Virus record (IMG/VR): IMGVR_UViG_3300048590_000661
Span: 60,599-124,598 of that record
Length of the DNA stretch: 64,000 nucleotides
Direction: 5' to 3' (one strand)
Origin: a virus
The notes under the pieces were generated by a model that saw only the letters and a program-made list of their open reading frames with translations, had not been told where the DNA came from and ran no database searches. Position numbers and translations under genes: made by a program. How positions within the stretch are numbered: position 1 is the first letter of the stretch; the number at the start of each line of letters is the position of its first letter. Shown here piece by piece: positions 24,662-60,783 of the stretch.

Positions 24662-25417
24662 TTATGACTCACTTTCTGAATAGTATTTATTATACTCTAT
24701 TAACAACTCTTCTCGATACTGGTACTCATGACCTAACCATGATTCTAGGTCGGCTAGGGTGTTGGATAGCTTGGGTAAATAAATTATATGAAAATTTCTA
24801 ATGTGACAATCTTCACATAAAGTAATTAGGTTACTTTCTACACCCCTTAATTCTGGATAAGTAGAGAAGTCGTAAATGTGATGCACGTTTAGATCACCAC
24901 CATATTTAGTACAGTTTTGACAAGTGTAATTATCACGATCACGTATTCGTGGTAAAATTGTTTCAAATATTCTCCCACGAATTATTGAATGTAGTGGTGT
25001 TATACCACCTTGCCAATTAGAACCTAATTCGCCAGTTCTAGAGCATGACCCACAACAAAAACATTGCGATTGGCTTCTTAAATTACTTAATAAATTGTTG
25101 TATATATCCCCACATCTTAAACATCGACAAGTAAATTGACGTTGACCACATCTTTTTTCAATTTCTTCTATAATTTCCCAATCTTTTATCACTTTGCCAG
25201 GAGGCATATCTATTCGTAAGTTGAGCATAGCACAAGGTTTGCATGAAAACCCTTTGTGTGGACGCACTAAGTTACTTATTTTTAATTTATATAAATCACC
25301 ACACAGTAAGCATTCACACAAAAATAACCGCTCTTTTCCTGTTTTATCTAATTCTTCGGTCACTTTCCAGTTTTTAAATACATCACCAACATTTATTGCT
25401 CGTTTTCTATTAGGCAT
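24662..25417 (-). CDS. Zinc-ribbon HNH endonuclease (two tandem N-terminal units)
   Basis: 251 residues. This family member has two similar N-terminal zinc units in tandem (VFKNWKVTEELDKTG...CECLLCGDLYKL and IKDWEIIEEIEKRCG...CRCLRCGDIYNN) instead of the FGRLTVI unit of other copies. The HNH core is RDNYTCQNC, LNVHHIYDFSTYP, LITLCEDCH. It lacks a ribbon-helix-helix partner and is co-oriented with its neighbours between the phosphoesterase gene and a small gene. Confidence 0.9.
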   Translation of the reverse strand: MPNRKRAINVGDVFKNWKVTEELDKTGKERLFLCECLLCGDLYKLKISNLVRPHKGFSCKPCAMLNLRIDMPPGKVIKDWEIIEEIEKRCGQRQFTCRCLRCGDIYNNLLSNLRSQSQCFCCGSCSRTGELGSNWQGGITPLHSIIRGRIFETILPRIRDRDNYTCQNCTKYGGDLNVHHIYDFSTYPELRGVESNLITLCEDCHIRNFHIIYLPKLSNTLADLESWLGHEYQYREELLIEYNKYYSESES

Positions 25418-26963: not shown

Positions 26964-27323
26964 TTACAAACTTTCTAACTTAGATTCTGTATTGAACAGA
27001 ATATTATTTACAGACTCACCATGAACTAAAAACCAGAACCGCCTATTATAATTAGCTAATCTATTTACATAAAGGTTATATAAATTATGCTGCCGATTAT
27101 CGAGTATTGTAAGGGTTAGCGTTTCATTGCTACTTTTTTCTATATATTTTAATATTTGCTTTTGTGTGGGTAGATTAAACTCTTTAGTTTTAGTAGTTAA
27201 AATAACATGGTTTAAATAAATATTGTCAGTTGCTATTCCTTTATGAATTAAAATAAACCCGTTGTAATTTGTTACATACTTACTGTCTAAAGTATTAATT
27301 AATTCATAGCTAATTTGGTTCAT
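26964..27323 (-). CDS. Protein of unknown function
   Basis: 119 residues, no recognised family. It begins about 20 bases after the 3' end of the split tRNA-Leu and may be read from the same promoter. Confidence 0.65.
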   Translation of the reverse strand: MNQISYELINTLDSKYVTNYNGFILIHKGIATDNIYLNHVILTTKTKEFNLPTQKQILKYIEKSSNETLTLTILDNRQHNLYNLYVNRLANYNRRFWFLVHGESVNNILFNTESKLESL

Positions 27324-27343
27324 ATTAATGTTTTCTTATTCAG

Positions 27344-27368
27344 TGAGCTAGAAGAGAGTCGAACTCTT
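27344..27368 (-). tRNA. tRNA-Leu 3' part (T arm and acceptor strand)
   Basis: Minus strand AAGAG TTCGACT CTCTT is a perfect T stem with a canonical T loop, followed by acceptor strand CTAGCTC and discriminator A. CTAGCTC is fully complementary to GAGCTAG of the 5' part at 27826-27832. The HNH gene reads through it, with its TAG stop lying in the acceptor strand. Confidence 0.75.
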
Positions 27369-27782
27369 ACGCCAAGTGTCGGTAAAACTATGGCAATTAG
27401 GACATAATAATTGTAAATTTTCAATCACATTATTCGTTCTATCACCGTCAATGTGATGTAATTCTAACTTAATTGGATAATCCAACCAAGTTGTAAGCTT
27501 ACATTCTTCGCATTGATTGCCACGCTCGTTAATTAGATGTTTACGAAAATTATACGCTCTGGTATAAGTAGACCAATCTTTTAATTGCCTGCCCTTACTC
27601 CATAATTGTCTAGTCCAATGATCTGTATTTACATTTAATAATTGTAATTTACGATTCATATTAGCATAATTACCACCAACAGGTTTTAGTCCTACGCCCT
27701 TGAGTAACCCTGCCATTGACTTAACATTCTTTGCAATTTCTATTATATCTTCATCTGTATAATTAACAATCCGCTTTGGCAT
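27348..27782 (-). CDS. HNH endonuclease inserted in a tRNA-Leu gene
   Basis: 144 residues, a different HNH subfamily from the zinc-ribbon copies. An N-terminal helical domain (YTDEDIIEIAKNVKSMAGLL) comes first, then the nuclease RGNQCEECKL, LELHHIDGDRTNNVIENLQL, LCPNCHSFTDTWR. The last residues, KSSTLF, are encoded by the tRNA T arm. AAGGAG lies about 15 bases before the ATG. I see no group I core in the insert, so how a tRNA could be made from this locus is unclear. Confidence 0.88.
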   Translation of the reverse strand: MPKRIVNYTDEDIIEIAKNVKSMAGLLKGVGLKPVGGNYANMNRKLQLLNVNTDHWTRQLWSKGRQLKDWSTYTRAYNFRKHLINERGNQCEECKLTTWLDYPIKLELHHIDGDRTNNVIENLQLLCPNCHSFTDTWRKSSTLF

Positions 27783-27799
27783 CTAAAGTAAATTTTACT

Positions 27800-27832
27800 C
27801 CTTAATCACGTCTACCATTCCACCACTAGCTC
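27800..27832 (-). tRNA. tRNA-Leu 5' part (acceptor strand and D arm)
   Basis: Minus strand GAGCTAG TG GTGGAATGGTAGAC is a typical tRNA-Leu start: 7-base acceptor strand, TG at positions 8-9 and a Leu-type D arm. It continues GTGATTAAGG, where TTAA could be part of a UAA anticodon loop, then runs into the HNH gene. A consensus promoter is 30 bases upstream. Confidence 0.75.
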
Positions 27833-27862
27833 AACTTAGCTATTTACTCGCCTATAGCCACT

Positions 27863-27891
27863 ATTTTACCACAGGTTGAAAAGTTTGTCAA
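27863..27891 (-). promoter_or_regulatory. Class I promoter for the tRNA-Leu locus
   Basis: Minus strand TTGACA (27886-27891), 17 bp ending in TGTGG, TAAAAT (27863-27868). Confidence 0.85.
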
Positions 27892-28466
27892 GGGGCAACT
27901 TTATGGTCTGGATAATAGGTATAATAAGCAATTAATAGTTCATTTCTGTATTTATATTCGTAACCTAACCAGCTTTCAAGATCAAATAGTGTATTAGTTT
28001 TATTATTTGGATATATTTTATGAAAATCATCAACATGACAGTGTTTACATAAAGTAATGAGATTGCTTTCTATACAACTTAAGTCTTTATAATTTTGCAT
28101 ATCATAAATATGATGGCAATGTAATTCAGTGTTTTTAGCACCACAATTTTGGCATGTGTTACTATCTCTTTTGCGAATTCTAGACCTCATTTTTTTAATT
28201 ATTTTTTTTCTGTCTTTTTCATTTTTTATTGCAATCCCACCTTTCCAAGAATTAGAGCTGTTACCAGAAGCCTTTTCCTTTCGATAACACCCACACGATC
28301 TTGTACTTCCCCTGGAAAGACTATTACCAACTATTATTTTTTCATTGCCACAATCGCAAATACAATTATATTCCCATTGTTGGTGTTTATTCACAGAATG
28401 TTTACTAATAACAGTTATCCTTCCAAATTTTTGCCCTGTCAAATCTTTACAGCTTGAATAAGTCAT
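27888..28466 (-). CDS. Zinc-ribbon HNH endonuclease, N-terminally shortened
   Basis: 192 residues. It starts directly at the second unit of the family (DLTGQKFGRITVISKHS, CICDCGNEKII, RSCGCY) and lacks the first zinc unit. The HNH core is RDSNTCQNCG, LHCHHIYDMQNYK, LITLCKHCH. No ribbon-helix-helix partner. The start follows a 19-bp inverted repeat; the missing first unit may have been lost when that element formed. Confidence 0.88.
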   Translation of the reverse strand: MTYSSCKDLTGQKFGRITVISKHSVNKHQQWEYNCICDCGNEKIIVGNSLSRGSTRSCGCYRKEKASGNSSNSWKGGIAIKNEKDRKKIIKKMRSRIRKRDSNTCQNCGAKNTELHCHHIYDMQNYKDLSCIESNLITLCKHCHVDDFHKIYPNNKTNTLFDLESWLGYEYKYRNELLIAYYTYYPDHKVAP

Positions 28467-35452: not shown

Positions 35453-35525
35453 GCGGGGATAAGTTAATTAGTAAAACTGCCATTCTTATACAGTGGAATT
35501 ACCCGTGCAAGTCGGGTTCCCCGTA
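35453..35525 (+). tRNA. tRNA-Ile(UAU)-like gene with unusual D and T loops
   Basis: A full cloverleaf folds: acceptor GCGGGGA/TCCCCGT (one G.U), U8 A9, D stem AGTT/AACT, anticodon stem CCATT/AGTGG with loop CTTATAC (anticodon TAT at 35487-35489, reading AUA), 4-base variable loop, T stem ACCCG/CGGGT with loop TGCAAGT. The D loop AATTAGTAA lacks the usual GG and the T loop has G at position 55, so the normal D-T loop contact is missing. AUA is a common codon in this AT-rich genome, so such a tRNA would be useful. No CCA is encoded. Confidence 0.7.
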
Positions 35526-35556
35526 CTACTCAAAAAAATAAAAGGAATAAATAACT

Positions 35557-60585: not shown

Positions 60586-60783
60586 ATGGCAGAGCAAGAA
60601 TTTTTACAACGTGCGCAACAGATAGCTATAGCGAATAACTTGACGACAGATATTAATACATATAGTGTATTATCTAATGGCTATACTATCTCTTCATTGC
60701 AGACTGATCTATATAATGTACCACTACTAATCGTTACTTACTCCCAAGGTTGGTTAACTACTACACTAGCGCAAGCGATATAA
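60586..60783 (+). CDS. Small protein of unknown function
   Basis: 65 residues from MAEQEFLQRAQQ (an ATG at 60559 would add nine residues). No motif. Confidence 0.58.
   Translation: MAEQEFLQRAQQIAIANNLTTDINTYSVLSNGYTISSLQTDLYNVPLLIVTYSQGWLTTTLAQAI

Follow-up and report, generated by a model that had tools for sequence, protein, structure and literature searches.

A viral tRNA-Leu gene apparently split and inactivated by a phrog_10822-type HNH homing endonuclease gene

The window analysed here is a 64,000-nucleotide stretch (positions 60,599 to 124,598) of a viral contig 124,598 bases long, IMG/VR record IMGVR_UViG_3300048590_000661. It carries, entirely on the minus strand, a 489-base unit (27832-27344) in which a 435-base HNH open reading frame (ORF) is enclosed by a 5' part of tRNA-Leu type (27832-27808) and a 3' part (27368-27344). 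The unit opens with the 5' acceptor strand GAGCTAG of a former tRNA-Leu (27826-27832), followed by positions 8-9 and a Leu-type D arm (TGGTGGAATGGTAGACGT, 27808-27825). A 25-base leader (27783-27807) then occupies the place expected for the anticodon arm; it carries a Shine-Dalgarno-like AAGGAG at 27803-27798, 15 nt upstream of the ATG, and folds no better than shuffled sequences. The HNH gene (27348-27782) reads on through the T arm AAGAG-TTCGACT-CTCTT (27352-27368), which doubles as its final codons, into the 3' acceptor strand CTAGCTC (27351-27345), where its TAG stop falls (27350-27348). A73 (27344) ends the unit, and CCA is not encoded. The acceptor strands pair at 7/7 positions and the T stem at 5/5. 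The acceptor, D, and T arms are present, and the anticodon and variable arms are absent.

A promoter-like sequence, TTGACA-17-TAAAAT with a TG preceding the −10 element (an extended −10), lies 5' of the tRNA at 27863-27891 on the minus strand. It is assigned by consensus match alone (11 of 12 bases). Of the 14 sites that reach a threshold of 9/12, where shuffled sequences lead one to expect 11.0, it scores highest. When the 5' part was compared with 589 distinct tRNAs from the surveyed loci described below, the best 12 matches were all tRNA-Leu, as were 30 of the best 40, against a background of 96/589. The initial annotation, which described two halves of a tRNA-Leu with complementary acceptor strands around an HNH gene that stops in the acceptor strand behind a consensus promoter, is borne out on each of these points; it did not state the strand. 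Three different HNH genes lie inside a 4-kb section of the window (24662-25417, 27348-27782, and 27888-28466, all minus), and the stop codon of the last overlaps the promoter-like site.

The 144-amino-acid product matches phrog_10822 over residues 4-140 (E 2.4e-32), and both PF01844 (HNH) and PF13392 (HNH_3) score above their cut-offs. Its HNH motif is intact, with H110, N122, C127, N129, C130, and H131 invariant in alignment A3. In a structural model, the N-terminal part is helical and the C-terminal part HNH-like; searched against the PDB, the model gave no match below E 0.001. Together, the Pfam and PHROGs matches, the alignments, and the model point to an HNH homing endonuclease. The window protein also matches, by tblastn, the HegA gene of T5, which is located among the T5 tRNA genes.

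Relatives of this protein are commonly found beside tRNA genes. A first survey covered close IMG/VR relatives on 15 distinct contigs, 10 of which have a tRNA-Leu at most 100 nt from the HNH gene; in L002, L003, and L017 this tRNA-Leu(UAA) contains an intron of ~200 nt. Small introns beside the relatives L003, L017, L084, and L110 score as group I in Rfam. A larger survey comprised 80 loci, of which 30 hold full-length and 50 partial relatives. A tRNA lies within 100 nt of, or surrounds, 27 of the 30 full-length genes (16 of them Leu), compared with 37/85 control ORFs of at least 100 aa from the same 30 loci, a conservative control since the surveyed loci are tRNA-rich. Among partial relatives, 34/50 are near a tRNA (12 Leu) and 10/50 have no tRNA in the stretch. 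The linkage to Leu is not exclusive, as 11 of the 27 near full-length cases involve other isotypes or odd calls.

Seven of the 80 loci place the ORF within an intron-bearing tRNA call (L063, L066, L067, L071, L072, L073, and L078). These seven introns fall short of the Rfam gathering score for group I introns; by eye, those of L063, L066, L071, L072, and L073 contain GTAGAGACTA...ATAGTCCAGAC motifs common to the Rfam-scoring introns. The window gene shares its HNH family and its host gene with L063, L066, L072, and other HNH genes in tRNA-Leu introns. Unlike that type, in which an intact anticodon arm surrounds the intron, the window has neither a ribozyme nor an anticodon arm.

The layout of the window, with a 5' half, an HNH gene, a 3' half, and no recognisable anticodon, recurs independently in three more loci: L028/L033, L031, and L081. 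These were sought by scanning for HNH genes that end just before a T arm and from the survey. Acceptor pairing is 7/7 in L028, L031, and L081, as in the window, and the T stem has 5/5 pairs in L028 and 4/5 in both L031 and L081. L028 and L031 are confirmed members of phrog_10822, and L081, a full-length relative from the survey, is presumably one as well. L027 is a shorter counterpart of L028/L033 whose contig starts too late to include an upstream acceptor partner. Three pattern scans returned 24 stretches (2, 7, and 15), 17 of which have T stems of three pairs or fewer and were set aside as chance. The remaining seven, with L011 recognised by eye, reduce to four cases (L010/L011, L027/L028/L033, L031, and L040), and a 7/7 upstream acceptor partner is present in L010/L011, L027/L028/L033 (except L027), and L031. 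The HNH gene of L010/L011 belongs to a family other than phrog_10822.

The strongest evidence that tRNA-Leu genes are the target of this family comes from comparing occupied and empty sites in other phages. Within Ounavirinae, the tRNA stretch that surrounds the HNH gene of phage Maleficent is matched by 259 records, 10 of them with a coverage of 80% or more. Citrobacter phage Mordin lacks the HNH gene and has a tRNA-Leu(UAG) that starts GGGAGATTGAC GGTAATTGG. Maleficent, whose flanks are 99-100% identical to those of Mordin on both sides, retains the 11 bases GGGAGATTGAC, continues with the HNH gene and its own diverged tRNA-Leu(UAG), and rejoins Mordin at TACCA. The phages pSJ21, SP22, and EcSzw-2 have a junction like that of Maleficent when compared with Felix O1, whose tRNA starts GGGAGATTGAT. 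A similar difference, reaching further upstream, separates the tRNA-Leu(UAG) genes of the Otagovirus phages phiPsa347 and psageK4. The Mordin/Maleficent and Felix O1 junctions show, at the level of sequence, that a phrog_10822-family member inserted inside a tRNA-Leu gene in Ounavirinae and substituted its own version.

These phages are distant from the window virus, and their outcome differs from that in the window, since the cassette brings its own tRNA. No sister genome was found through relatives of the neighbouring genes or of the flanking DNA, so for lack of a close relative with an uninterrupted tRNA, insertion is not established by an empty site in the window lineage. The flanking-DNA search returned a single weak match, present in two records of the same phage, to an HNH gene of Vibrio phage SBP1 that has no tRNA in its vicinity; it was discarded.

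Taken together, the locus is quite probably a phage tRNA-Leu gene invaded by a phrog_10822-family HNH homing endonuclease gene, a selfish element that destroyed its own target. We infer that the HNH protein cleaves tRNA-Leu genes and homes into them. The nuclease would recognise such genes and nick or cut them, and repair off an HNH-bearing allele would then copy the HNH gene into the break, an outcome seen in relatives. Elsewhere, tRNA function survives because the cassette brings either an intact tRNA-Leu or a group I intron. In the window, the anticodon and variable arms have been lost, and the 124.6 kb record shows no tRNA-Leu to replace the lost one; Ile(TAT), at 35453-35526, is the only other tRNA recognised there. 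At the level of sequence, the tRNA is therefore dead. The HNH gene now lies behind the tRNA promoter with its own ribosome-binding-site-like sequence, and probably uses this promoter. The T arm and acceptor strand may in the same way have been taken into use, as they supply the final HNH codons and stop.

Simple decay of a dead tRNA does not predict one feature of the locus, perfect acceptor and T arms alongside a missing anticodon arm, except where the event is a recent one. An improbable alternative is that the acceptor-T helix has been kept on purpose, in a tRNA-like transcript with an HNH ORF replacing the anticodon arm. RNase P and 3' tRNA nucleases would trim the ends of this transcript and thereby shape or stabilise the HNH mRNA. 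The loci would then represent a class of phage 'tRNA-shaped messengers', in which HNH homing genes replaced the anticodon and variable arms and the tRNA maturation machinery sets the mRNA ends; this, too, seems improbable. As part of the same idea, the promoter, 3' end, and stop codon would all derive from a tRNA. Such an architecture has a counterpart in tmRNA, where a tRNA-like acceptor/T domain is combined with an ORF in place of the anticodon arm, as in the window unit. Unlike tmRNA, the window unit encodes a 144-amino-acid nuclease and no tag, and neither ARAGORN nor Rfam detects a tmRNA in the window.

In favour of this idea, the acceptor helix is retained in all four anticodon-less cases (the window, L028/L033, L031, and L081), each with four or five T-stem pairs and an unrecognisable anticodon arm. 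However, these loci were identified by their T arms, and the sample is therefore biased towards intact ones. In the structure predicted for the 489-nt unit, the acceptor strands are closed, but the T arm is missing from this minimum-energy fold, whose stability is nothing unusual (z -1.56), and translation of the ORF passes through the T arm. The anticodon-less loci are well suited to a clean test of mRNA shaping by tRNA processing enzymes.

Less likely by some distance is that an unrecognised, HNH-carrying intron is spliced out to produce a working tRNA-Leu. Related HNH genes do lie inside introns of tRNA-Leu anticodon loops, and both outer arms are intact in the window. However, ARAGORN and Rfam call no tRNA at the split unit. 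The Rfam Intron_gpI model has no match in the window, and neither it nor the Rfam tRNA model matches 27300-27900 at E values up to 10, in agreement with the initial annotation, which saw no group I core. Joins between the 5' and 3' parts were checked for a canonical anticodon arm. Under the strict test, window joinings gave 0 arms, while four of four tRNA-Leu controls with group I-type introns (L063, L072, L066, and L017) recovered a Leu arm with its CTTAAAA loop; two controls were re-run. A relaxed test of the window gave 44 arms at 4/5 pairs (shuffled mean 37.1) and 7 at 5/5 (shuffled mean 3.9), none of which has a Leu anticodon even at 4/5 pairs. As the initial annotation stated, the anticodon and variable arms are not intact.

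The anticodon-arm test was used in place of ARAGORN on artificially joined parts, because the latter calls a tRNA so often, for some 50% or more of the joins in most cases and for the controls as well, that it does not discriminate. Low-threshold ARAGORN, which reports 251 'genes' in the window and includes the split unit with a stop anticodon, was not used either. In addition, HNH homology reaches about TDTWRK, next to the T stem, so the T stem directly follows the nuclease and leaves no space on that side for a variable arm or a ribozyme. Since no excision restores a Leu anticodon arm, while the intron controls do, a spliced tRNA is very unlikely. With its anticodon and variable arms missing, no group I core, and no excision that yields a Leu anticodon, the tRNA-Leu reads as dead. 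The initial annotation had offered a choice between removal of an unusual intron and a dead tRNA whose promoter feeds the endonuclease. The former is disfavoured because there is no Rfam group I or tRNA match and no joining with a Leu anticodon arm; the latter is better supported, with expression of the endonuclease presumed. Beyond the reach of that annotation were the link of this HNH family to tRNA-Leu genes and the empty-site comparison in other phages, in which a member lies inserted in tRNA-Leu.

The weakest alternative, that the two parts are remnants of two different dead tRNAs or a chance match, draws some weight from the 7 of 100 order-1 resampled genomes with a match to the strict split-tRNA motif (paired T arm, 7/7 acceptor, U8, and D-loop pattern), but it hardly accounts for the 7/7 acceptor pairing, the Leu-type D arm, and the promoter in place. 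That motif occurs at a single place in the 124,598-base record, the split unit, and the resampling did not require an HNH ORF between the halves. Because a tRNA-linked HNH family lies exactly between the parts, and the same layout is repeated in three other lineages, a chance origin of the arrangement is not credible on these sequence comparisons.

Mobile nuclease genes have been described near phage tRNA genes before. The available passages of one source list T4 SegB in a tRNA region, for tRNA-Arg/tRNA-Ile (PMC2988022), and those of another describe SegB as often near tRNAs and reported to amplify a tRNA segment (PMC13096335). HNH genes are also noted within viral tRNA clusters in the accessible part of a survey (PMC6409571). 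T4 SegB and T5 HegA are free-standing homing endonucleases of phages, and like theirs the window gene can be viewed as a mobile nuclease gene that occupies a tRNA region. SegB is a GIY-YIG nuclease in an intergenic position, in contrast to the window gene, which is of the HNH type and lies inside a tRNA whose anticodon arm is lost. A second parallel is found in T4-like phages, where, in the passages available, Aeh1 mobE splits nrdA and T4 mobA splits a topoisomerase gene (PMC2988022); in both, as far as those passages go, an HNH homing gene sits in a functional gene region and leaves two pieces. The protein pieces left by mobE and mobA reassemble, whereas in the window the host gene is a tRNA, its middle is lost, and reassembly looks impossible. 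A literature search, with subscription papers mostly outside its reach, returned no description of a phage tRNA gene with an HNH gene inside it, and the passages available on SegB, mobE/mobA, and viral tRNA clusters do not mention a tRNA whose middle has been replaced by an HNH gene.

Phages carry many tRNA genes, and such genes are conserved targets. Invasion by the phrog_10822 family has several outcomes: an HNH gene within a tRNA-Leu intron, an HNH gene adjoining an intron-bearing tRNA-Leu, an HNH gene accompanied by a replacement tRNA-Leu, so that the isoacceptor is restored, and, in the window, an HNH gene in an unrestored tRNA. Provided that the nuclease does cut tRNA-Leu genes, its homing would help to explain the swap and loss of phage tRNA repertoires.

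Several other loci combine HNH genes with partial tRNAs. In L010 (4979-5618, minus), and likewise in L011, a tRNA-Thr(UGU) is split past its anticodon arm by a second, intact tRNA-Thr(UGU) and an HNH gene; the order is the 5' half with the anticodon arm, the intact tRNA-Thr(UGU), the HNH gene, and the 3' half. The anticodon stem of L010 has one mismatch and fails the strict test. L040 (2300-2620, a Vicingus serpentipes MAG) has a short HNH C-terminal remnant that passes into the T arm and acceptor of an orphan 3' part, beside an intact tRNA-Tyr, and is probably a decayed case; its acceptor candidate was not counted, being part of the adjacent tRNA-Tyr. L116 combines a half-tRNA, an HNH gene, and an intact tRNA, L099 an intact tRNA, an HNH gene, and an orphan 3' half, and L005 a half-tRNA followed by a degenerate HNH gene and an intact tRNA-Leu. 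L061 and L106 were dropped as half-tRNA cases, as the tRNAs on both sides are intact. L012 (1428-1634, minus) contains a tRNA-Leu-type 5' part and an 8-base perfect acceptor (TAAGCTAG/CTAGCTTA) around ~190 nt, with neither a canonical T arm nor an ORF. In L118 (1897-2230), a tRNA-Phe(GAA) call with a 258-nt intron lies 39 nt past the HNH gene. L025 (2646-2780) and L026 (434-569) have tRNA anticodon loops with an insert of ~47-50 nt, far below the size of a group I intron, and joining the flanks of the insert in L025 gives a normal-looking Leu-type arm.
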